A stretch of DNA of 64,000 bases from Cohaesibacter intestini (GTDB lineage: Bacteria > Pseudomonadota > Alphaproteobacteria > Rhizobiales > Cohaesibacteraceae), in NCBI RefSeq assembly GCF_003324485.1, contig NZ_QODK01000002.1, forward strand, positions 992,001 through 1,056,000, given 5' to 3'. This document shows, piece after piece, positions 2,574 to 14,249 of this stretch (position 1 is the stretch's first letter; every line of letters begins with the position of its first letter). Both the position numbers and the translations under genes were made by a program. A model generated the notes under the pieces. The model was not told where the DNA came from. It did not search any database and saw nothing but the letters and a program-made list of their open reading frames with translations.

Positions 2574-3476
2574 TTGACATCATCGAAATTCGCAGCATTT
2601 GACACCCTTGAAAACGCGTTTCTTCTCCATGAGCCAGAGGAGCAGCTGGCCCCGTTTCTATTCAACTCCCCTCATTCAGGCCGCTGCTACACCCAAGCCT
2701 TCAAGGACTCCAGCCGATTGGGAGAAATGGAGTTACGCCGGTCGGAAGATGCTTTCGTTGATCTGTTGTTTAAAAAGGTGCCCGATGTTGGCTTGCCTTT
2801 GCTGAAGGCCCATTTTCCGCGTGCTTTCCTCGATCTCAACCGGGAGCCCTATGAACTCGATCCAAGCATGTTCGACGCTCCGCTGCCTTCCTACGTCAAA
2901 AGCGCTGGTGCTCGGGTGGGCGGTGGCCTCGGGACGATCGCCAGAATCGTTGCAGAGCGCCGCGAGATCTACAAACACCGCCTGACGGTAGAAGAAGGGC
3001 TGGAGCGCATCGAAACATTCTACAAACCCTATCATCAGACGCTGAGACGACAAATGGCCCTCACCCATGTCGATTTCGGCTATGCCTGTCTGATCGATTG
3101 CCATTCGATGCCCTCCCGCGTGCTGCAAAATACCAATCCGGCAAACCGCCCAGACATCATTCTGGGTGATCGCTATGGCACCAGCTGTCATGCCTCCCTG
3201 ACCGATGCGGTAAAAGGAATCCTGACACATCTTGGTTTCAAGGTAGAAATGAACCGCCCTTATGCCGGCGGCTTCATAACCCAGCATTATGGTCGCCCCC
3301 TGAAGGGGCTTCATGCCCTCCAGATCGAAATTGATCGCAGCCTTTATATGGATGAGGATACCTTCACGCCGGTTGCCCATTTCGATGAACTGACGGATCT
3401 GTTTGCCCGCTTTGCCGAGCTGCTGATGCAGTGCGCCAATGACGCCTTCCTGCCGGAAGCAGCTGCCGCGGAATAG
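2574..3476 (+). CDS. N-formylglutamate amidohydrolase family protein
   Basis: The 300-aa product has the family signature FNSPHSGR near residue 30, RAFLDLNREPYELDP around residues 83-97, and LIDCHSMPS near residue 180, where the histidines and acidic residues are expected to bind zinc. The family hydrolyses N-formyl-L-glutamate to formate and glutamate in histidine breakdown. No other hut genes are nearby, so the true substrate may be another N-formyl amino acid. The start is TTG at 2574; no in-frame ATG nearby gives the conserved N-terminus. The gene is divergent from cpdR across a region of about 430 bases. Confidence 0.88.
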   Translation: MTSSKFAAFDTLENAFLLHEPEEQLAPFLFNSPHSGRCYTQAFKDSSRLGEMELRRSEDAFVDLLFKKVPDVGLPLLKAHFPRAFLDLNREPYELDPSMFDAPLPSYVKSAGARVGGGLGTIARIVAERREIYKHRLTVEEGLERIETFYKPYHQTLRRQMALTHVDFGYACLIDCHSMPSRVLQNTNPANRPDIILGDRYGTSCHASLTDAVKGILTHLGFKVEMNRPYAGGFITQHYGRPLKGLHALQIEIDRSLYMDEDTFTPVAHFDELTDLFARFAELLMQCANDAFLPEAAAAE

Positions 3477-3610
3477 TATCCTCGCGCTCCTCTGCTATTC
3501 CCCTGCCCCTCCCCCTATCCCCGCCTTGATTATGCAAAGCGCACACACATCCGCATTGGCTTGCGGACCAACAGGGGTACGGGAAGGCATAGAAAAGGGG
3601 ACTGGGCAAA

Positions 3611-3700
3611 GAAAAAGGGCCGCAAAAAGATGCGGCCCGCGAAGTCTAAGGAGGAAACGCCCAGCAAGGGCGGCGGGAATAAATTCCGCACTGCAACAAT
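3611..3700 (-). ncRNA. mmgR: Candidate MmgR/suhB-type (alpha-r8) small RNA
   Basis: The minus strand reads as a compact structured RNA. It has a first hairpin (gcgg..ccgc arms, 3673-3689), a GCCC/GGGC hairpin (3659-3671), the single-stranded stretch GTTTCCTCC complementary to ribosome binding sites, and a terminator hairpin (3617-3624 with 3631-3638) ending in five U. The layout and the TTGCTGGGCGTTTCCTCC core match my memory of rhizobial MmgR, which limits phasin and polyhydroxybutyrate accumulation. The 5' end is estimated from the structure. No gene on the minus strand could use this terminator otherwise. The family name is from memory and should be tested with a covariance model. Confidence 0.55.
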
Positions 3701-4159
3701 GGCACCGAAAGCCCAGAAATTCAAGACAATCCTGCCTCAAGGCGCGGAGACTGGCTCGGATCGGAGTTTTTCACGAACTTCCAAAAATCCTCCAAATCAT
3801 TGAATAATAATATATTTCCTCCCTTGTCCGGGCTTTATTTCAGCCTTCAAATTTACTGTGCATAATTTTTAGGCCAATTTCCGAAAATACTATAATTGCA
3901 CAAAAAATAGACATATGCCTCCTGTTCTGATGCGAATTCCATCACCACAGAAGTCGAGTTTTCCAGCACAGCCAATGGCCTGACCGGAGGCTCACGCTTT
4001 GGTGATATTGCGTGTGATCAGCGTCACAGCCAATTCATTTCCCATTGATCAGCTTTCCCGACAGGATGCAATTGTCCGCTGAGCACAACCGATCAGACGG
4101 ACCAAGTTTCAAAACGCAAACAACATTTTTGCTCACATCACTTACTCCGGGAGACTACC

Positions 4160-4459
4160 ATGTCTAACAATGCAAAAACCTTCTCCGCAGCCCTCGTCGC
4201 TGGCGCTGTCGCCACTTTCGTTTCCGCCGGTGCCATGACCGCCCTGACCACCGACGGCGTACAGGCTGCCGAAATGGAGAAATGCTACGGTGTTGCGCTC
4301 AAAGGCCAGAATGATTGCAAGGCTGGTCCAGGCACCACCTGCTCGGGTTCCTCCACCATGGACTATCAGGGCAACGCCTGGAAGCTGGTCCCTAAAGGCA
4401 CCTGCACCACCATGAAAACCCCACATGGCATGGGCAGCCTGACCCCGAAAAAAATGTAA
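4160..4459 (+). CDS. bufA1: Bufferin precursor peptide (DUF2282, BufA1 type)
   Basis: The 99-aa protein has an N-terminal signal segment (about residues 6-36, likely cut near VQA/AE) and a short core with four cysteines at 42, 53, 61 and 82 in the DUF2282 pattern [13 protein letters not shown]...C...VPKGTC. Bufferins are ribosomal peptides whose cysteines are oxidatively modified by a DUF692 enzyme and which bind copper in the periplasm; this follows the Caulobacter system. A ribosome site GGGAG stands before the ATG. It is first in the cluster bufA-bufB-bufC-doxX. A small hairpin and a U-run just downstream might raise precursor mRNA over the enzyme genes. Family assignment is firm; the metal is inferred. 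Confidence 0.93.
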
Positions 4460-4514
4460 GACCGGCCGCACCTGCGGACGATTTTTGAGAGGTACAGGCA
4501 AGAGGTAAAGTCCC

Positions 4515-5408
4515 ATGACATTGTCCAACACCCTGTCTGCCTCGTCTTCCAAACCGATCCCGGCGCGTGCCGGGGTCGGTCTGAAGGCGGAGCATTATCA
4601 GACGATCCTTGAAACAAATCCCGACATTGGTTGGTTTGAAGTGCACCCTGAAAATTACATGGGGGCAGGCGGTCCGCCGCATAAATACCTGACCGAGATC
4701 GCCAGTCGCTATCCGCTGTCCCTGCACGGGGTCGCCGCCTCCATTGGCGCTGACCAGCCGCTGGATCAGGGCCATCTCGACCGCCTCAAGGCGCTCAATG
4801 AGCGTTACATGCCCGGACTTTTCTCCGAGCATCTGGCATGGTCGAGCCATGACGAGCTTTTTTTCAACGATCTTCTTCCCGTCCCCTATCGCGAAGACAG
4901 CCTTGAGCGGGTCGTCGCCCATGTGGATCAGGTTCAGACCCTGCTGGGTCGCAAAATCCTGATTGAAAATCCGTCGGTCTATGTGGCATTCGAAAGCTCC
5001 ACCATGTCCGAGATCGCCTTTCTGGAAAAACTGGTGGCCCGCACCGGTTGTGGCCTGCTGCTTGACTGCAACAATGTTTATGTCTCAGCGACCAACCAGA
5101 ATTATGACCCTGTCGCCTATCTCGACGCCTTCCCCGTGGAGCATGTTGGTGAGGTGCATCTGGCCGGATTTGCGCGCGATGAAGATGATGAAGGCGAAAT
5201 TCTGCTGATTGATTCCCATGATCGCGAGGTCGCCGATGTGGTCTGGCAGCTCTATGACCACGCGCTCAAACGCTCCGGTACCGTGCCGACCCTGATCGAA
5301 TGGGACGGCAACATTCCCACTTGGGACGTGCTGTTTGCGGAAGCTGAGCGAGCAGAAGCCATCCTTGATCAGCATCGCAAGGCGGGAGACCTCCGTCATG
5401 CTGGCTAA
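4515..5408 (+). CDS. bufB: DUF692 multinuclear iron oxidative enzyme (BufB)
   Basis: The 297-aa TIM-barrel protein carries the DUF692 metal-ligand motifs in order: HPENYM (44-49), LHG (70-72), SEHLAW (104-109), ENPS (151-154), DCNN (184-187), HLAG (215-218), DSHD (233-236) and EWD (262-264). DUF692 (MNIO) enzymes use two or three iron ions and oxygen to modify cysteines of precursor peptides. The neighbouring BufA1 is the obvious substrate. It overlaps bufC by 11 bases, which suggests coupled translation. All expected ligands are present, so the enzyme is probably active. Confidence 0.93.
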   Translation: MTLSNTLSASSSKPIPARAGVGLKAEHYQTILETNPDIGWFEVHPENYMGAGGPPHKYLTEIASRYPLSLHGVAASIGADQPLDQGHLDRLKALNERYMPGLFSEHLAWSSHDELFFNDLLPVPYREDSLERVVAHVDQVQTLLGRKILIENPSVYVAFESSTMSEIAFLEKLVARTGCGLLLDCNNVYVSATNQNYDPVAYLDAFPVEHVGEVHLAGFARDEDDEGEILLIDSHDREVADVVWQLYDHALKRSGTVPTLIEWDGNIPTWDVLFAEAERAEAILDQHRKAGDLRHAG

Positions 5409-6186
5409 TGATCGGGTCAAAAATCTGGGCACGGTCCAGACCGGCTTTGCATCGGCCCTCCTCAATCTCGAGGATCCGGTGCCCGCCGACATAATTGGTC
5501 CCAAGCCCGGCAAAAAGGCCGTCAAACGCTTTGGCGTCTATCGCAACAATGTGCTCAGCAGTCTCATCGAAGCCATGGCGGGGGTCTATCCGGTGGTGCG
5601 CGATCTGGTCGGCGAGGAATTTTTCAACGCCACCTGCTCGATCTACATTCGCCAGCATCCGCCACGTTCCAAGATGTTGATCACCTATGGCGATGCATTT
5701 GCCGAGTTTCTGGCAAATTTCCCGCCAGTTGCCGAACTGCCCTATCTGGCAGACGTCGCAAGACTGGAGCGAGCTTGGCTCGATGCCTATCACGCGGCCG
5801 ACGCCGCACCATTCGACCCATCCATGTTGCAATCAATCCCGCCGCAACGTTTGGGCGCGCTGACCTTTGCCTTTCATCCCGGTGCACACTTGCTTCGGTC
5901 CGACCATCCGGTCTTTTCCATCTGGTCGGCTCATTCTGAACATGGCGACACTGTCGACCTTGGCACCGTAGAACAGGCAGCACAGTCCGTTCTCGTCACC
6001 CGCCCGCACTGGCAGGTGTCGGTGACCATGCTGCCCGATGGCGCAGACCTCTTCTTTGCCGCCCTCATGGAAGGGGCGACCCTCGCTGACGCCGCAGAGC
6101 GAGCTGCCAGCGCTTACGACAATTTTGATTTTGGCCAGCATTTCACTGGCCTCTTGCAAACCGGCGCCTTGTTGAGCGCCCATTAA
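5398..6186 (+). CDS. bufC: DUF2063 partner protein (BufC)
   Basis: This 262-aa protein shows the DUF2063 N-terminal hallmark RFGVYRNNV and the following YPVVRDLVGEEFF, with a separate C-terminal region after about residue 140. In bufferin and other MNIO pathways this partner recruits the precursor to the DUF692 enzyme. The ATG at 5398 lies inside the end of bufB; a longer frame from 5335 would overlap bufB by 74 bases and lacks conserved sequence. It ends 67 bases before the DoxX gene. Confidence 0.92.
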   Translation: MLANDRVKNLGTVQTGFASALLNLEDPVPADIIGPKPGKKAVKRFGVYRNNVLSSLIEAMAGVYPVVRDLVGEEFFNATCSIYIRQHPPRSKMLITYGDAFAEFLANFPPVAELPYLADVARLERAWLDAYHAADAAPFDPSMLQSIPPQRLGALTFAFHPGAHLLRSDHPVFSIWSAHSEHGDTVDLGTVEQAAQSVLVTRPHWQVSVTMLPDGADLFFAALMEGATLADAAERAASAYDNFDFGQHFTGLLQTGALLSAH

Positions 6187-6253
6187 CCCGAACAAACTGA
6201 AGCTGCCCTCCCCCGCAACGCAGCCTTCAGACAGCCTAACAACGGATACGAAC

Positions 6254-6841
6254 ATGTCTCTACTCGACCGGCTTATAGCCTTACACAACCGCACTTTCTC
6301 AGCACTGGATGCTGCACTGTCCGACTGGTTCCTCGGTCTTGCTGCCCGGTTGATTTTCTCCAGCGCCCTGTTTTTCTATTATTTCAACTCCGGCATCAGC
6401 AAACTGGGCGAGGGTTTCTTCGGAATATTCAATCCCTCCGCCGGTGCCTATGGCCAGATTCTGCCAACCATCGCCGAAGCCGTGCTGTATGACACCAGCC
6501 AGATCGCCTTCTTCCCTTGGACGATCATCGTCATTCTGGGCACCGTCACCGAAATCATCCTGCCATTTCTGATCCTATTTGGTCTGGTCACACGTCTCGC
6601 CAGCCTTGCCTTCATTGGCTTTATTGCCGTTCAGACCTATGTCGACATCGCCTTCCACGGCCTTGAAAGCGAAACCATTGGAGCGGTGTTCGATCAGGTA
6701 CACAATTCAGAAATTCTCGACTACCGCCTCTTGTCCATCCTGCCGCTGCTCCTGTTGATCCTCAAAGGCCCCGGCAAGGCATCCCTTGACTATCTGCTGA
6801 CAAAAACGATCCAGCCAAGCGGCAAATTGGCAGCAGCCTGA
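6254..6841 (+). CDS. DoxX-family membrane protein of the bufferin cluster
   Basis: The 195-aa protein has four predicted membrane helices, with the DoxX-like first helix ARLIFSSALFFYYFNSGISK followed by GEGFFGIF. DoxX proteins often accompany DUF2282/DUF692/DUF2063 genes, and their exact role there is unsettled; redox support or peptide handling at the membrane are possibilities. The spacing after bufC (67 bases, no terminator seen) fits one operon. No regulator or ECF sigma gene is adjacent. Confidence 0.85.
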   Translation: MSLLDRLIALHNRTFSALDAALSDWFLGLAARLIFSSALFFYYFNSGISKLGEGFFGIFNPSAGAYGQILPTIAEAVLYDTSQIAFFPWTIIVILGTVTEIILPFLILFGLVTRLASLAFIGFIAVQTYVDIAFHGLESETIGAVFDQVHNSEILDYRLLSILPLLLLILKGPGKASLDYLLTKTIQPSGKLAAA

Positions 6842-6973
6842 ATACAAGATCAGAATTGGTCTTGACCCGGGCAAGCGAGCTTGGTCCTATGGGACACCAG
6901 CCAGACACCTTTTCAGGCACCTCTTTGGGCCACTGCCTGAAGAGGTTTTTGTCTCTTGCCTCAAGGATCAAAC

Positions 6974-8053
6974 ATGCAATTTGCCAGCGACAACTGGGCC
7001 GGGGCCTCTGCCAAGGTCATGGACGCCCTGTCCCGCCACAATGATGGTGCCGCCCCCGCCTATGGCGGTGATGACCTCACCCAACAGATCGAAACCCGTT
7101 TTCAGGACATTTTCGAAACCGATTGTTCCGTCTTCATGGTCGCAACGGGCACCGCCGCCAATGCGCTGTCGCTCTCAACGCTGACCGGTCCGGGCGGTAC
7201 TGTCTTCTGCCATATGGACGCCCACATACGGGTTGATGAATGCGGCGCACCGGAATTTCTGACTTCGGGTGCCCGCATGTGGGGTCTGGAAGGTCGCCAT
7301 GGCAAACTGACACCAGACGCCATCCGGCATGGTCTGGAGCAAGTCCCCCATGGGATTGTCCATCATGGCCAACCCAATGCCATTTCCCTCTCTCAGGCCA
7401 CCGAATACGGCACCGCCTACTCACTGAGGGAACTGGAAGCATTGGCAACCATTGCCAAGGACCAGAAACTCGCCCTGCATATGGATGGCGCCCGCTTTGC
7501 CAATGCCATGCTGGCTATCGGAGCAACACCGGCTGAAATGACATGGAAATCCGGTGTCGACGTCCTGTCGTTCGGCGCGACGAAAAATGGGGCTTGGTGC
7601 GCTGAAGCCGTGGTCTTTTTCAACAAGGATTATGCGAGCGACTTCATCTATCGCCGCAAACGGGCTGGCCATCTCTTCTCCAAAATGCGCTTTGCCGCCG
7701 CCCAGTTTGATGGCTACTTTGCCGACGACCACTGGCTGGACAATGCAACGCACGCCAACAAGATGGCCAACCGTCTGATTGATGGCCTTAAGGCATCCAA
7801 CAGCAGCCGCATCGCCTGGCCGAGCCAGTCCAACGAGGTCTTTGCCATCCTGCCCAAGACAGCAGCCGAACAAGCCCGCGAGGCGGGCGGCAATTTCCAT
7901 GAATGGCCGTCAGCAGGCCTGCCGGATGAAGACTGCCCCGGCGAAGGGGAGTGCCTGGTTCGTCTGGTCTGTTCCTTCCGCACCCAACCAGATGAAGTCG
8001 ACGCCTTCCTCGCGGCCATCAACAAAAGCGAAGCACCCCACAAAATCGGATAG
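6974..8053 (+). CDS. ltaE: Low-specificity L-threonine aldolase-like PLP enzyme
   Basis: The 359-aa protein follows the fold type I aldolase/beta-eliminating lyase pattern. It starts MQFASDNWAG, has a TGTAAN segment near residue 59, HMDAH at 80-84, DGAR at 171-174 (PLP-binding aspartate) and the Schiff-base lysine K204 in SFGATKNG. These enzymes cleave L-threonine or L-allo-threonine to glycine and acetaldehyde in the cytoplasm. AAGGA sits just upstream of ATG 6974, so I prefer it to the in-frame TTG at 6956. A strong hairpin follows the stop codon. Confidence 0.88.
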   Translation: MQFASDNWAGASAKVMDALSRHNDGAAPAYGGDDLTQQIETRFQDIFETDCSVFMVATGTAANALSLSTLTGPGGTVFCHMDAHIRVDECGAPEFLTSGARMWGLEGRHGKLTPDAIRHGLEQVPHGIVHHGQPNAISLSQATEYGTAYSLRELEALATIAKDQKLALHMDGARFANAMLAIGATPAEMTWKSGVDVLSFGATKNGAWCAEAVVFFNKDYASDFIYRRKRAGHLFSKMRFAAAQFDGYFADDHWLDNATHANKMANRLIDGLKASNSSRIAWPSQSNEVFAILPKTAAEQAREAGGNFHEWPSAGLPDEDCPGEGECLVRLVCSFRTQPDEVDAFLAAINKSEAPHKIG

Positions 8054-8056
8054 CAA

Positions 8057-8090
8057 AACGGCTCCAGCGACATGTATCGCTGGAGCCGTT
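8057..8090 (+). terminator. Hairpin after the threonine aldolase gene
   Basis: A perfect 14-bp stem (8057-8070 with 8077-8090) encloses a six-base loop directly after the stop codon. Few U residues follow, so it may act as a terminator or mRNA 3' stabiliser. Confidence 0.6.
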
Positions 8091-8194
8091 CTGTGAGAGG
8101 ACCGATTGCCCTCAGGCACGGTGTGTGGGAGGAAGACCCTCAGGCAATCGGAGCGACCTTTTGGAAAAGGTCAGGGAGGAATGTGGGGGAGTGT

Positions 8195-8217
8195 GTGGAG
8201 CGTGGATCACGCTCCAC
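8195..8217 (-). terminator. Hairpin downstream of hsp20
   Basis: A perfect 10-bp stem (8195-8204 with 8208-8217) with a three-base loop lies 28 bases beyond the hsp20 stop codon. It has no clear U-run, so it is a probable but unproven transcript end. Confidence 0.45.
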
Positions 8218-8244
8218 CTTGATCTTGTCGGATCGAAGAAATGA

Positions 8245-8709
8245 TTAGTGGGTGTTACCTTCGATCATCGTCTGATCGGATGCGCTTTTGATGGCGATCT
8301 GGCGTGGTTTTTTCGCCTCAGGCAATTCTCGGGACAGATCGATATGCAACAGGCCATGCTCCATGCTTGCGCCTTCCACCTGCATATAGTCAGCAAGCTG
8401 GAACTGGCGCTCAAACGCACGGGACGCGATGCCGCGATGCAGATAATCCCGGTCCTTGTCCGCCTCATCAGCGACCTTTTCACCAACCACGGTCAGCGTG
8501 TTTTCCTTCACTTCGATAGAAATGTCTTTCTCGGTGAAGCCCGCGACAGCCATGGAGATGCGATAGCCATTCTCGGAAAGGCGCTCGATATTGTAAGGGG
8601 GATAGGAAGATGCTCCGCTATCCGGGCTTGAAACAGTGTCCAGCATGGAGAAAAGCTTGTCAAAGCCAACGGTGGAGCGATAGAGCGGGGTAAAATCGTA
8701 GTGACGCAT
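8245..8709 (-). CDS. Small heat-shock protein, Hsp20/IbpA type
   Basis: The 154-aa protein starts MRHYDFTPLYRSTVGFD, typical of class A rhizobial small heat-shock proteins. An alpha-crystallin domain follows at about residues 38-130 (YPPYNIE 37-42, HRGIASRAFER 91-101). It holds unfolding cytoplasmic proteins for refolding by DnaK/ClpB. Ribosome site AAAGGAGG precedes the ATG at 8709; an upstream in-frame extension to 8901 crosses the promoter and leader and is rejected. A sigma-32-like promoter and a ROSE-like leader are visible upstream, so both transcription and translation are probably heat-controlled. Confidence 0.95.
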   Translation of the reverse strand: MRHYDFTPLYRSTVGFDKLFSMLDTVSSPDSGASSYPPYNIERLSENGYRISMAVAGFTEKDISIEVKENTLTVVGEKVADEADKDRDYLHRGIASRAFERQFQLADYMQVEGASMEHGLLHIDLSRELPEAKKPRQIAIKSASDQTMIEGNTH

Positions 8710-8814
8710 GGAAATGCCCTCCTTTGAGCAGCAGGTTTGCGTATTTTTCAAAATGGTCATTCTCCCGTTCAGTGGCGAGAATGAGACGGCACCGGAGCCG
8801 TTTTGGCCTCCGAT
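8710..8814 (-). promoter_or_regulatory. ROSE-like RNA thermometer in the hsp20 leader
   Basis: Just before the start codon the leader can fold its ribosome site into a short imperfect hairpin at 8715-8733. There UGCU pairs with GGCA, a single G bulges, and CUC pairs with GAG of the Shine-Dalgarno sequence, with loop AAAG. A U(C/U)GCU strand opposite the ribosome site with a bulged G is the hallmark of ROSE elements, which melt on heating. Upstream hairpins are also possible. The leader length of about 105 nt is estimated from the promoter. Confidence 0.65.
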
Positions 8815-8820
8815 ATACGA

Positions 8821-8850
8821 GATATGGAAATGGTCAAATTCCTTTTCAAG
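8821..8850 (-). promoter_or_regulatory. Candidate RpoH (sigma-32) promoter of hsp20
   Basis: The minus strand has CTTGAAA (8844-8850), a 16-base spacer and CCATATC (8821-8827). This resembles the alphaproteobacterial heat-shock promoter pattern CTTGAAA...CCATNT. It is in the right place for a leader of about 105 nt. Confidence 0.6.
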
Positions 8851-9056
8851 ACTTTTTCTTCGAAAAAATGCACCAACCCCGCGAGCGGCCAATTCGTGCA
8901 AAAAGTGGCAGGATTTGGGCCTGCCACAGCATCGCCACGATGATAAATCCCAGATGAACAGGACCTTCCAATTGCGTTCAGCTAGCCCCTGCTAGGGTGA
9001 AATCACAACAACAAAATGGGCAGCAGGCACACCAACGCAAAAGGAAAGGCAAGATC

Positions 9057-9515
9057 ATGAAAGCAATAGCAGTCGCACTTCCCCTTCTCGTCGCAACCCT
9101 CATCGGTGGACCAGCCTCGGCCCGTCCGATCGACCTCACGGCAATGAATGGTCAGCTCGTTATCTCCATCGGCAAGGCCGAACAGGTGAGACATTACGGC
9201 TGGGATCAGCGCAAGGCCGTCAAACATCATGGCAAGCAGCGCCGCTTCGAGCCACTGCCGCCACGCAAGATCGCTCGCATTCTGAACAACCGCGGTTTTA
9301 CCGGTCTTAGAAACATGCGCACCGATGGCCGCGTCTATACCGTCAAGGCACGTGGCAAGCGTGGCAATCTGGTCCGTCTGACCGTCAATGCCCGCAACGG
9401 CAAGATCATCGACCGTCAGCTGCTGCGACGCCTCAACCGTGTCGACCGGCGCGCCAATGACCATAGCGCCCGCTGGGACTATCGCAACGACCGCCGCCCC
9501 TTCTGGATTCGCTAA
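9057..9515 (+). CDS. Small secreted basic protein, PepSY-like
   Basis: The 152-aa protein has a clear signal peptide (MKAIAVALPLLVATLIGG, cut near ASA/RP). The mature part is very basic, with many Arg and Lys. The middle (about 78-125) reads RKIARILNNRGFTGLRNM...GNLVRLTVNARNGKIID, similar to PepSY-like or antifreeze-annotated periplasmic proteins of rhizobia. Function is unknown. AAGGAAAGGCAAGATC precedes ATG 9057; an upstream in-frame ATG at 8997 would bury the signal peptide. A hairpin terminator follows. Confidence 0.75.
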   Translation: MKAIAVALPLLVATLIGGPASARPIDLTAMNGQLVISIGKAEQVRHYGWDQRKAVKHHGKQRRFEPLPPRKIARILNNRGFTGLRNMRTDGRVYTVKARGKRGNLVRLTVNARNGKIIDRQLLRRLNRVDRRANDHSARWDYRNDRRPFWIR

Positions 9516-9555
9516 GCCCTGATCCAAATGACATCAGAGCAATTCCCCGCAGAAG

Positions 9556-9593
9556 CAAAACCCCGTATCCTTCCAGCAAGGTTCGGGGTTTTG
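9556..9593 (+). terminator. Terminator after the secreted basic protein gene
   Basis: CAAAACCCCG (9556-9565) pairs with CGGGGTTTTG (9584-9593) around an 18-base loop. The arms carry A and T runs, so it may work in both directions. Confidence 0.65.
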
Positions 9594-9747
9594 TGCGGTC
9601 CTTCATCCTTACGCCGATGCCGTGGTGCACTATTCTAGGGTCCAGCCGCCCCATTGAGCGGGAAAAAGACAAAATGGGCAGCATTTCCTCTCCCAATCCC
9701 CCAGCATTTGGGTAAACTGGGGCAAGCGTCGCCAACTGGGAAAGAGA

Positions 9748-10755
9748 ATGTCGGACAAGCGCAAAGATTTGAAAAAACTGGACAATTATCCAGATCTGAT
9801 GGACGCCCGCTGCCAGACGATGAAAACCTATGATGGCTTTTCCTTGCGCACAGCACTTTGGCCTGCCACCGTCCCCGCACCCAAGGGCACCATCTGCCTG
9901 TTGCAGGGACGATCCGAATTCATCGAAAAATATTATGAAGTGATCCAGGAGCTACGCCAAAAGGGCTTTGCCGTGGCAACCTTTGACTGGCGTGGACAAG
10001 GAGGGTCAGACAGATTGCTGGACGATCCGCTGAAGGGGCATGTCAGGCGCTTTGCCGATTATGGCCGCGATCTTGATCAGTTCATGAAACAGATCGCCCT
10101 TCCCGACACGCCGCGACCGCATTTTGCGCTGGCCCATTCCATGGGTGGCCTGATCCTGCTCTCGAACTTGCCCCACATGCGCACTCTGTTCGAACGCACC
10201 CTGATCACCACACCTTTATTGGAACTGGCATCGCAACAGCGCCGCTTCATGGGTCTTCGCTTCCAGCAACAGACCATCCGCAAGCTTGCCGGTTTCCTGC
10301 GTTTCCTTGGACGGGGCAAAGCCTATATGCTGGGTGCCGACCGCAAACCAATCGACCCGCTGGGCTTTGAAGGCAATCCACTCACCTCGGACGGTCCGCG
10401 CTATGACCGCAATCGGCGCTATCTCGTCGATTTTCCCGAACTGGCCATAGCCGGACCGACGGCCAGTTGGCTACATGAAAGCTGCAAGGCGATGGATCAT
10501 CTGCAATCAAGCGACGTTCAGGCCACGATCCACACGCCGACCCTCATTATCACAGCCTCACAAGACACCATTGTCAGCACCAACATGGCCGAGCAGTTTG
10601 CGTCATCGACCCGCGCAGCCTATGCCATCAGCATCGCTGGCAGCCGCCATGAAGTGATGATGGAGCGCAACATCCTGCGCCAACAATTCTGGGCCGCCTT
10701 TGACAGCTTCATCCCCGGCAGCAATCCCGTGGAATTGACCGACGTGGCAAGTTGA
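9748..10755 (+). CDS. Alpha/beta hydrolase, lysophospholipase-like (PldB family)
   Basis: The 335-aa protein is a serine alpha/beta hydrolase. It has FDWRGQGGSDR near residue 90, the nucleophile elbow AHSMGG near residue 130, and a C-terminal SRHEVMMER segment supplying the catalytic histidine. It resembles lysophospholipase L2/monoacylglycerol lipases of rhizobia. No signal peptide is visible, so it is likely cytoplasmic or peripheral. It is monocistronic, converging with hisN. Confidence 0.85.
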   Translation: MSDKRKDLKKLDNYPDLMDARCQTMKTYDGFSLRTALWPATVPAPKGTICLLQGRSEFIEKYYEVIQELRQKGFAVATFDWRGQGGSDRLLDDPLKGHVRRFADYGRDLDQFMKQIALPDTPRPHFALAHSMGGLILLSNLPHMRTLFERTLITTPLLELASQQRRFMGLRFQQQTIRKLAGFLRFLGRGKAYMLGADRKPIDPLGFEGNPLTSDGPRYDRNRRYLVDFPELAIAGPTASWLHESCKAMDHLQSSDVQATIHTPTLIITASQDTIVSTNMAEQFASSTRAAYAISIAGSRHEVMMERNILRQQFWAAFDSFIPGSNPVELTDVAS

Positions 10756-10772
10756 CCGCCAGTCTGTGGCAA

Positions 10773-11579
10773 TCAGGCTTTGCCCGCCAGCAGCGCAATG
10801 GCTTGCTCGAGTAGAGCCTCATTGGCCGCGGCAATCACCTGCCCACCGTCAAAGGCCGAGCCACCAGTCCAGTTGGTGACAATGCCGCCAGCCCCTTCAA
10901 TGATCGGAATCAGCGGCGCAATATCAACTGGCTTCAGGGACGATTCAACAACCAGATCCCCATAGCCCAACGCTACCATGCAGTAGGCATAACAATCCGT
11001 GCCATAGCGCGTTAGACGAGCCTGTGCCTCAACCCGACGATAAGCGATCAGTTCATCCCCGACAAACAGATCAGGCGTGGTGGTGAAAAGCGTGGCTTCG
11101 CTTATGTCATGGCAAGCCCGTGTCTTGATTGAACGTTTGCCGTCCGGCCCCTGATAAAAGCTTTCTAGCCCGTTGCCGAAATAGCGTTCACCGGTAAAGG
11201 GCTGGCTCATCATGCCAAGCGAGGCGCCATCCTTATGGCGGTAACCAATCAGGGTGCCCCATGTTGGCAAACCGGAGATGAAGGCGCGCGTCCCGTCGAT
11301 CGGATCAAGAATCCACAGCCCATCCGCATCAAGATTTTCGTCTTCGAACTCTTCACCCAGAATGCCATGATCAGCAAATTGCGCCAAAATCGCCCGACGC
11401 ATCTCCAGCTCGGCCTGTTTATCGGCCTCGGTCACTGGATCAAACCCTGCTTCTTCCTTGTTCTCGACAGCAATCGGCGCCCGGAACAACGGCATCACCG
11501 CATCCCGCGCCAGATCGGCGAGATGGTTGAGAAAAGCATAGTCCGGGTGGCGTGAAGTCTCGGTCATAGTCGCGTCCAT
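10773..11579 (-). CDS. hisN: Histidinol-phosphatase, inositol monophosphatase family
   Basis: The 268-aa protein carries the Mg-binding motifs of the IMPase fold: GEE at 75-77, the core DPIDGT at 92-97, and VDIAPLIPIIEGAGG near residue 225. Its length and sequence match HisN, which removes phosphate from L-histidinol phosphate in rhizobial histidine synthesis. The distinction from CysQ/SuhB relatives rests on overall likeness. Two starts are possible, 11579 and 11567; AAGGA abuts the first and is 12 bases before the second. Confidence 0.85.
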   Translation of the reverse strand: MDATMTETSRHPDYAFLNHLADLARDAVMPLFRAPIAVENKEEAGFDPVTEADKQAELEMRRAILAQFADHGILGEEFEDENLDADGLWILDPIDGTRAFISGLPTWGTLIGYRHKDGASLGMMSQPFTGERYFGNGLESFYQGPDGKRSIKTRACHDISEATLFTTTPDLFVGDELIAYRRVEAQARLTRYGTDCYAYCMVALGYGDLVVESSLKPVDIAPLIPIIEGAGGIVTNWTGGSAFDGGQVIAAANEALLEQAIALLAGKA

Positions 11580-11736
11580 TCCTTAAGAGCGCCAGAGGCT
11601 GTTGGGGCGTGCCGGAGCGATCGGCTAAAGAGGATGCAAGCCTTTTACTCAAACGACCACATCCCTGCAATCGCCATAGCACGAAAAATGCCAAAGCGGA
11701 CAGTTTGTAGCGCTCGCACTGAATGAACAGGCGCGG

Positions 11737-12942
11737 TCAGCGGCTGTCGGACCAGGAGAAATTATCCACCCGCATTTGCGGCACGGACAGGGAAGACGGC
11801 GTGACCGGCGCTCCCTTGTTTGCCGCATCCGATGGCTGCGCCAGAGAGACAGGTTTGACCAGCTTGTCGGAATCAAGCGGCGGTTTGCGCAAGACAAAGA
11901 TATCCCGGCTTGCACCACGCCCTTCCCTCAGCGCCGCCTCATCGGCCGAGGCCAGATTGTCCGGCAGCACATCTTCGGCCACCGATTGAGACAAGGCGCG
12001 TACGACAAGTTTTTCGACAAAGAAGGCAAGCTTGCGCCGCCCGGCTTTGTTGAACCGAATGGCGTTGCCCTGACGCAGACGGCGATCCTGCCCGGTCAGA
12101 TCCGGGCCGCGATAGGAGAAGTTCCCCTCTTCATCAGCAAAGGCATCCCAGACATCAATGAACCGCTCGCCACGCTCCGTCAGACGACTGGCGACAAGAT
12201 CGTTCAGATAACGCAGATCGGTGGACAATTTCTTGCTGCCAACCGGCGGCAAACCCACCCAGAAAACCGGCCTGTCCTGCAGTGCAAAAGCCAACCGAAG
12301 CCGATCAATCTCGCGCCCATAGGACCGGACCCAGCCATCGGTCTTGAAGTCATAGGCAGGATAGATCTGAGCGCCTTCTTCATCCTTTTTCGCCGGCATC
12401 TTGATGCGATCATTCAATCCCACCATCACGACTGCGAAACTGAAGGGCTTGGAATCGAACAAAGCCTCGGGATCCTTCAAGACATTGCGACTTGAATTAT
12501 AGAGAATGCCGCTGCTCGGCTTGGCATGAATTTCCACCTTCACGTCAGGGACTTGCGAGAAGGCATCTTTCAGCCCCCAGGCAATATCCTGACCGAATTC
12601 ATCGCCAAACACGGCAATCACCGCAGCATCAGGATCCTTGCTGACCGTGGAGATGACCGGCTTGACCGGCCCAGCCCGCCGCACCGGCTTTTTCGTACGC
12701 TTGGTCTTTTCTTCTTCTTTTTTGCGACTGCGGCGTTTGAACAGCCGCTCAAAGAAACCAAGCGCAACGTCATACCGCCCGTCATCAACCGCCACTGCAG
12801 GCGCTTCGTGTCGCAACAGGGGCGCTGCGGACAATGGAGAGACCAGAGCCGCCTCCAACAGCAGACAGGCGCCAATCATCAGCGACAGGCAAAGCCTGAT
12901 GCCCTTTGGTCCCCTTTTGCAATGTTGCGTCTGTCCACTCAT
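11737..12942 (-). CDS. DUF459 periplasmic protein (SGNH-hydrolase-like)
   Basis: The 401-aa protein has an N-terminal hydrophobic signal (about 16-40), a Lys/Arg-rich linker (about 65-90) and a DUF459 domain. The domain contains AVFGDEFGQD in place of the usual GDSL block, a GLND block (VVMVGLNDR) and a late FNKAGRRKLAFFVEK segment. DUF459 proteins resemble SGNH esterases; a role in envelope polysaccharide modification is inferred. It lies 38 bases after the lytic transglycosylase on the same strand, suggesting co-transcription. Confidence 0.82.
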   Translation of the reverse strand: MSGQTQHCKRGPKGIRLCLSLMIGACLLLEAALVSPLSAAPLLRHEAPAVAVDDGRYDVALGFFERLFKRRSRKKEEEKTKRTKKPVRRAGPVKPVISTVSKDPDAAVIAVFGDEFGQDIAWGLKDAFSQVPDVKVEIHAKPSSGILYNSSRNVLKDPEALFDSKPFSFAVVMVGLNDRIKMPAKKDEEGAQIYPAYDFKTDGWVRSYGREIDRLRLAFALQDRPVFWVGLPPVGSKKLSTDLRYLNDLVASRLTERGERFIDVWDAFADEEGNFSYRGPDLTGQDRRLRQGNAIRFNKAGRRKLAFFVEKLVVRALSQSVAEDVLPDNLASADEAALREGRGASRDIFVLRKPPLDSDKLVKPVSLAQPSDAANKGAPVTPSSLSVPQMRVDNFSWSDSR

Positions 12943-12980
12943 GGTCTCAATCGATGCTCATCTGTCTCGTTGCTATAGAT

Positions 12981-14249
12981 TTACCCGCCTTTGCGCAGAG
13001 CCTCAAGCAAATATCCACTTGGAAAGCCATCCGGAATGCGACCGGAGCGTTTCTGCCAATGACGGATTGCAGCCTTCGATTTGGATCCCAACCGGCCGTC
13101 GACACCTCCGGTGTCATAGCCTCGCCGATTGAGCAGCGTCTGCAGTTCTTTCCGCTCGGTTCGGGTCAACATCCTGTCGCCGCGCGGCCATGTTCCGGTA
13201 AAGCCACCACCGCCGCGAATCCGGTCGGCCAAATGCCCCACCCCGAGCGCATAGGCATCCGCATTGTTGTAGCGCTTGATGACCGAGAAATTCTTCAGCA
13301 TCAAGAAGGCCGGACCACGATAGCCAGCCGGAATGATCAACCGGGCCTGATCGTCTGGCCGCGGGAATGGCTGCCCCTTTGCCCGTTTGATGCCCAGTTT
13401 TGACCACTCAGCCAAACTCTTGGTCACCCGCCCGTCCGCCAGTTCAAAAGCGAATGTCTTTGGCAGTGCAACCTCATAGCCCCATGTCTTTTCGCTCTCC
13501 CAGCCTGCGGTCGACAACAGGTTGGCTGTGGAGGCCAGAGCATCAGGCACCGAAGACCAGATATCACGCCGTCCGTCGCCGTCAAAATCAACCGCCTTGG
13601 ACAGATAGGTGGTGGGAATGAACTGGGTGTGCCCCATGGCGCCTGCCCATGATCCGACCATGCTGGACGGAGCGACGTCCCCATTTTGCAGGATCTTCAG
13701 CGCTGCAAGCAATTGTGTGCGGCCAAATTTCGAGCGTCTTTTATCCGCATAGCCAAGCGTTGCCAGCGACTGGATCGTCGGTTTGATCAGCTTGGAGTTT
13801 TTGAAAATCGCACCATAGGCGCTTTCCATCCCCCAGATCGCCAGAAGGACATGCCGATCAACACCAAAGCGTTGTTCAAGCTGACTCAAAAGTGTCGCAT
13901 ATTGCGCTTTCATCTTGCGGCCATTCTTGATGCGGGTCTCGCTCACCGCACCATCAAGATAAGACCAGATCGGTTTGACAAATTCTGGCTGATTGCTGGC
14001 TCGTTTGATGATCGAGCTGTCATAGCGCGCACCGGCAAAAGCGGCATTGTATGTCTGGCTCGAAATGCCCGCGGATCGGGCCGTTGGCCAGAAGTCGCGG
14101 ATCCACTTTTGGAACCCCGCTTCACTCGCTGCCCACCCTTCACCAGTCGACAGGGCGAGAATCAGCATGCCAGCCGACACCACTGAACGGGGATAAGAGC
14201 CACATTCCCCGGAGAGCCGGAACAATGCAAACCAAGACATTCTGCGCAT
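12981..14249 (-). CDS. Lytic murein transglycosylase with peptidoglycan-binding domain
   Basis: The 422-aa protein has a signal segment (about 22-41), an MltB-type Slt domain with catalytic glutamate E142 in AIWGMESAYG and GAMGHTQFIPTTY, and a C-terminal peptidoglycan-binding domain (QTLLNRRGYDTGGVDGRLG). It cleaves glycan strands in the periplasm to 1,6-anhydro products. ATG 14249 has no clear ribosome site; starts at 14240 or 14168 would also leave a signal peptide. Neighbours are DUF459 downstream and divergent galU. Confidence 0.9.
   Translation of the reverse strand: MRRMSWFALFRLSGECGSYPRSVVSAGMLILALSTGEGWAASEAGFQKWIRDFWPTARSAGISSQTYNAAFAGARYDSSIIKRASNQPEFVKPIWSYLDGAVSETRIKNGRKMKAQYATLLSQLEQRFGVDRHVLLAIWGMESAYGAIFKNSKLIKPTIQSLATLGYADKRRSKFGRTQLLAALKILQNGDVAPSSMVGSWAGAMGHTQFIPTTYLSKAVDFDGDGRRDIWSSVPDALASTANLLSTAGWESEKTWGYEVALPKTFAFELADGRVTKSLAEWSKLGIKRAKGQPFPRPDDQARLIIPAGYRGPAFLMLKNFSVIKRYNNADAYALGVGHLADRIRGGGGFTGTWPRGDRMLTRTERKELQTLLNRRGYDTGGVDGRLGSKSKAAIRHWQKRSGRIPDGFPSGYLLEALRKGG

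Follow-up and report, generated by a model that had tools for sequence, protein, structure and literature searches.

Gene content and organization of the locus

Four open reading frames lie on one strand within positions 4160-6841 (+) of the window, the whole 64,000-nucleotide stretch analysed (C2:992001-1056000 of the 4.79 Mb genome of a marine bacterium). They are bufA (4160..4459), encoding a 99-amino acid Buf1 (DUF2282) precursor; bufB (4515..5408), encoding a 297-amino acid MNIO (DUF692) iron enzyme; bufC (5398..6186), encoding a 262-amino acid DUF2063 partner with an RRE-like second domain (PME type 1); and doxX (6254..6841), encoding a 195-amino acid DoxX-like membrane protein. The start of bufC, an ATG at 5398, overlaps the end of bufB. 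Among named organisms, those nearest by BufB are Cohaesibacter, and family searches found one copy each of the bufA, bufB, and bufC families in the genome. In a set of 102 fetched loci, in which this locus is counted three times and some near-duplicates are included, bufA precedes bufB on the same strand in every case, so the arrangement is not due to chance. A bufC gene is present in 99 of these loci (it is absent from L014, L024, and L047), while doxX was matched in 30, many of the loci ending before the position of doxX; in Buf1 bufferin clusters DoxX is frequent and not obligatory. Families, gene order, relatives, and the fold of BufC all agree with the compact operon including DoxX that had been proposed for this DNA.

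A terminator-like stem of 12 pairs with a T tail (6919..6946, +), recognized by consensus match only, lies between doxX and the next gene and may be the end of the transcription unit; the region has seven such sites against a shuffle mean of 4.2. The operon itself is dispensable in the genus, since DUF2282 was matched in 12 of the 17 other Cohaesibacter genomes and not in the remaining five; in the wider sample of kin the family occurs in 40 of 61 genomes, this one included.

A constant neighborhood is shared by five named Cohaesibacter loci (L002-L005, L081), in which a receiver protein, which we take to be CpdR-like, and an N-formylglutamate amidohydrolase precede the operon and an aldolase-like gene follows it. 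In the window the latter is a threonine-aldolase-like gene (Beta_elim_lyase, 6974-8053). It was considered as a fifth gene of the operon and rejected because of the intervening stem and because only 10 of the 80 named loci have it downstream, five of them Cohaesibacter; in nine of the ten it comes after doxX, and L009 has no doxX match. Further downstream is an Hsp20 gene (8245-8721, -). Hsp20 is found downstream in 12 of the 80 named loci (L002, L004, L009, L030, L034, L036, L039, L042-L044, L075, and L081), including three of the five named Cohaesibacter loci within the stretch available. It is also present where the aldolase-like gene is missing, and its linkage is probably an old gene order.

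Precursor, enzyme, and partner proteins

The product of bufA matches PF10048 (5e-26) and has four cysteines (Cys42, Cys53, Cys61, and Cys82), as expected of the BufA1 precursor named in the original prediction. All four are kept without exception in the 45 precursors aligned, which were chosen from the 102 loci with L059 outside the alignment, and the four-cysteine pattern is kept in 101 of the 102. The exception, the Buf1 precursor at L059:4726-4986 from the metagenome-assembled genome of a clam-symbiont gammaproteobacterium, has tyrosine for the first cysteine (EKYYG); if this is not a sequence error, the peptide is without its usual disulfide partner. By eye, the N-terminus of BufA has a Sec-type look, with lysine near the start, a hydrophobic stretch, and a VQA-A site. 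NCBIfam gave no BufA1 model for this peptide, its sole match being BufA2 at 26.4 against a cut-off of 60, and the structure model was poor (pLDDT 68.4) and was left unused. Sequence comparison of BufA and of BufC with solved structures, at E up to 1, returned weak, unrelated-looking matches only.

BufB is clearly assigned, both by Pfam (MbnB_TglH_ChrH, 2.5e-107) and by the NCBIfam model MNIO_BufB (NF050167, "MNIO family bufferin maturase"; 387.5 bits, cut-off 310), and can be aligned to 3BWW, an iron enzyme of solved structure (1.7e-42). In a subset of the loci, all 32 BufB proteins aligned have the same residue at 21 His, Glu, Asp, or Asn positions. That residue occurs in 3BWW too at 18 of the 21, while His27, His44, and Glu213 differ; the original prediction had given the DUF692 oxidase all of its ligand motifs. 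By sequence identity, the conserved positions are candidate iron ligands. Alteration of the predicted third iron site of HvfB eliminates its activity (PMC13419390).

The DUF2063 partner was also correctly foreseen: BufC matches PF09836 (3.9e-25) and its model (pLDDT 93.4) has a fold like those of TglI and NGO1945. In a Foldseek search the best match was TglI (8hci_A, 1.4e-5) and the next NGO1945 (3dee, 1.3e-3), while single RRE proteins were matched weakly (5v1v_A, E 1.3). TglI is the partner of the MNIO TglH, and both TglI and NGO1945 serve as reference partner proteins (PMC12452194). The NCBIfam models for BufC (HvfC) and DoxX (HvfX) were both matched below cut-off. DoxX, placed in an alignment of 22 sequences, is just over the Pfam DoxX cut-off (26.4 bits against 23.6).

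A conserved element upstream of bufA

In an alignment of the window with 12 relatives (11 Cohaesibacter and one of another family), a block upstream of bufA is, by eye, better kept than its surroundings; this element was absent from the earlier description of the locus. Its core is an operator-like A box, TCAC-N6-GTGA (3992..4005, +), which is followed by GTG (4012-4014) and TCAC (4024-4027). A B box, ATTTCC-CA-TTGA (4037..4048, +), comes next, recognized from upstream counts and a pattern search and perhaps representing a -35 region or a second site.

The two boxes were counted in 96 buf upstream regions of 250 bases, from which this locus (L001, L082, L102) and the near-duplicates L005, L091, and L098 had been dropped and in which the near-duplicate pairs L002/L093, L029/L100, and L070/L071 were left. 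The A box occurs in 31 (all 11 Cohaesibacter regions and 20 of the 85 from elsewhere), compared to a mean of 0.36 and a maximum of 2 in 300 dinucleotide shuffles; half-site spacings from 0 to 15 other than N6 gave zero or one match each. The B box (ATTTCC-N1-3-TTGA) occurs in 17, with a shuffle mean of 0.13 and a maximum of 2. Measured from the first base of the A box, ATTTCC is 45 bases away in 16 loci, of which 11 are Cohaesibacter and five are Rhodobiaceae or unclassified Alphaproteobacteria, and 46 bases away in L053 and L054; deviant distances are 23 in L015, 77 in L044, and 109 in L092. The exact A box is absent from 65 of the 96 regions, and many distant bufferin loci are without the element. 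A 36-bp form of the A region has a single occurrence in this genome at zero mismatches.

As a pattern, TCAC-N6-GTGA-N31/32-ATTTCC has 30 matches across 397 genomes of the order, this one included, against one for the reversed control. Directly before a bufA-bufB pair on the same strand are 21 of the 30: 13 in Cohaesibacter and eight in genomes of seven other families. The 13 are all of the sampled Cohaesibacter genomes with the operon, namely this one and the 12 congeners bearing DUF2282. The other nine matches have neither bufA nor bufB within about 1.5 kb, and four of these (L175, L177-L179) resemble a single site that is repeated. The Cohaesibacter matches give no independent support, because those loci helped define the pattern; the eight outside the genus are at least partly independent, the spacing having been learned in part from relatives and overlap with the earlier loci being possible. 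With 21 of 30 matches at bufferin operons, the spacing of the element locates such operons from DNA alone. Literature searches returned no report of it, which is weak evidence of absence since they covered open-licence papers and were not made by the motif itself; a term search of PMC12452194 found no occurrence of promoter, operator, or regulator. As a computational result, the element goes beyond the descriptions found.

Alternatively, the element could be a conserved promoter recognized by a sigma factor, ordinary or alternative, with no operator and no dedicated regulator. The B box is at a plausible place for a -35 region, and the nearly fixed spacing of 45 or 46 bases would suit such a promoter. 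The A box, however, is a 14-bp inverted repeat at a distance that is long for a promoter hexamer, and several buf upstream regions, including L031, L070, and L080, have it without a B box. On balance this explanation is unlikely.

Sigma-F, NrsF, and candidate regulators

In Caulobacter the corresponding operon is switched by sigma-F and NrsF. NrsF has no match in the present genome, which is 99.37% complete, while the Caulobacter control was positive, and no sigma-F promoter (GTAACC-N16-CGAA) was found within two mismatches from 3407 to 13422, around bufA. The Cohaesibacter lineage therefore most likely switches its bufferin by means other than sigma-F/NrsF, and the upstream element may stand in place of the Caulobacter switch. 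NrsF is over the cut-off in six of 66 tested genomes with a buf operon. The A box occurs in none of these six and in 26 of the 60 others, an association with NrsF absence that is not significant (Fisher p 0.07, uncorrected for kinship). Three of the six NrsF genomes (L022, L040, L096) have a sigma-F-like site with one mismatch 75-76 bases before bufA; the other three have such sites with two or three mismatches, these counts being without a shuffle control.

A search for the regulator gave no candidate gene. The heavy-metal response-regulator model TIGR01387 had 51 matches in this genome, none over the cut-off. The eight loci fetched for this model have no exact A box, and the three one-mismatch A-box matches in them are not directly before the regulator genes. 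When the open reading frames of the 102 buf loci were searched with an OmpR-type profile built from those eight, all that matched were receiver-containing proteins, either single-domain or larger, and by this profile no OmpR-type regulator lies beside them. CusR/HprR-like and UzcR-like boxes are repeats of similar size to the A box, and for this reason control of the buf operon by a regulator of either kind was considered; it is a guess. The UzcR motif is not spelled out in the available part of PMC12864828.

A possible wider regulon

With the following GTG included, the A box has 33 matches in 18 Cohaesibacter genomes, compared to 11 for the reversed control. Twelve of the 33 are bufA (one by coordinates only). 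Among the 30 of 33 that were inspected, the genes include an FG-GAP protein in three genomes, DUF547 in two, MsrA in two, an L,D-transpeptidase in two, and patatin in one; many of the remaining matches fall inside long open frames. Ten of these loci were read by eye, and none has ATTTCC at +45.

In two sister Cohaesibacter genomes (L115:1501-1523 and L142), an A-box match lies about 50-80 bases before an MsrA gene with a signal-like start. A-box-like sites are also found 85-139 bases before genes for FG-GAP (L117, L120, L121) and DUF547 (L130, L140) proteins, which come from four Cohaesibacter genomes, look exported, and are of uncharacterized function.

A regulon shared by the bufferin operon and a periplasmic MsrA is only suggestive on these sequences; it would parallel MsrPQ in the sigma-F regulon of Caulobacter. 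More broadly, it is conceivable, at somewhat less than an even chance, that in many Hyphomicrobiales bufferin operons an unnamed, unlinked regulator acting on the A-B element replaces sigma-F/NrsF and possibly governs a broader set of periplasmic repair genes (MsrA, DUF547, FG-GAP), as a counterpart of the Caulobacter regulon of bufferin and MsrPQ.

Proposed function and comparison with known systems

The locus is very probably a Buf1-type bufferin operon with an A-B promoter element under a regulator other than sigma-F/NrsF. By homology to characterized systems, the operon most likely makes a thiooxazole peptide that buffers excess periplasmic copper. BufA would be made with a Sec signal and bound through the RRE-like domain of BufC, which would present it to BufB. 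As a multinuclear iron oxidase, BufB is predicted to convert Cys53 and Cys61 to 5-thiooxazoles, while Cys42 and Cys82 would form a disulfide; the mature exported peptide would then hold copper in the periplasm. DoxX would assist at the membrane, perhaps against thiol or redox stress. Transcription would depend on the conserved A-B element, which lies roughly 170 to 110 bases ahead of bufA and is where the unlinked regulator would act; the transcript would probably end at the stem after doxX.

Copper binding could also be secondary, the same biosynthesis serving mainly against another stress: gold, cadmium, chromate, hypochlorite, or general oxidation of the periplasm. In Caulobacter, the operon CC3254-CC3257 (DUF2282, DUF692, DUF2063, and DoxX) is under sigma-F control in a regulon that responds to chromate and cadmium (PMC3511200); MerC fusions of bufferins are known (PMC12452194); and A-box matches precede the signal-bearing MsrA genes. 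However, the Caulobacter operon is also induced by copper, and the sigF mutant is impaired by copper while its sensitivity to chromate and cadmium is similar to that of the parent (PMC8224329); the MsrA link is confined to two genomes and, by eye, is without a B box at +45. Another primary target is improbable, and copper buffering is preferred. That this strain carries only a non-functional remnant of the operon, as the lack of a DUF2282 match in five of 17 congeners might hint, is scarcely credible with four open frames, the conserved enzyme positions kept, and the A-B element in 13 of 13 sampled Cohaesibacter genomes with the operon.

The gene cluster is ordinary and well explained, belonging to a widespread and already described family of copper-binding modified peptides. 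The statement in the original prediction that such bufferins were described in few organisms is outdated, Buf1 clusters being known by the thousands: PMC12452194 reports Buf1 and Buf2 bufferins with this gene core in such numbers, and PMC12668002 counts over 24,000 MNIO-PME1 loci. Buf1 peptides carry their modification on the central cysteines and pair the outer ones in a disulfide (PMC12452194), and characterized MNIO-PME1 pairs install 5-thiooxazole and generally bind copper (PMC12668002). With this operon a further genus joins a known system of copper protection. The element gives a concrete handle on bufferin switching where NrsF is missing and specifies which bases to test.

Among the known systems, the captophorins of the EGKCG kind (fontiphorin, gonophorin, and oxazolin) have in common with Cohaesibacter an MNIO, a DUF2063-RRE partner, and a cysteine-containing precursor. 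EGKCG repeats are found in the precursors of fontiphorin and oxazolin (PMC12668002), whereas that of Cohaesibacter is of the four-cysteine DUF2282 type, and the HvfC and HvfX models are matched here only below cut-off. The gold-induced (gig) operon of Cupriavidus metallidurans, upregulated by gold, silver, and copper, has been named as the same cluster (PMC8224329). The bufferin 1 operon of Caulobacter, CC3254-CC3257, is identical in its four families and their order, although its DoxX has 150 amino acids compared to 195 in Cohaesibacter. The two also differ in control: Caulobacter has sigma-F/NrsF and GTAACC-N16-CGAA, while Cohaesibacter, with no NrsF match, has a different conserved element upstream of bufA.
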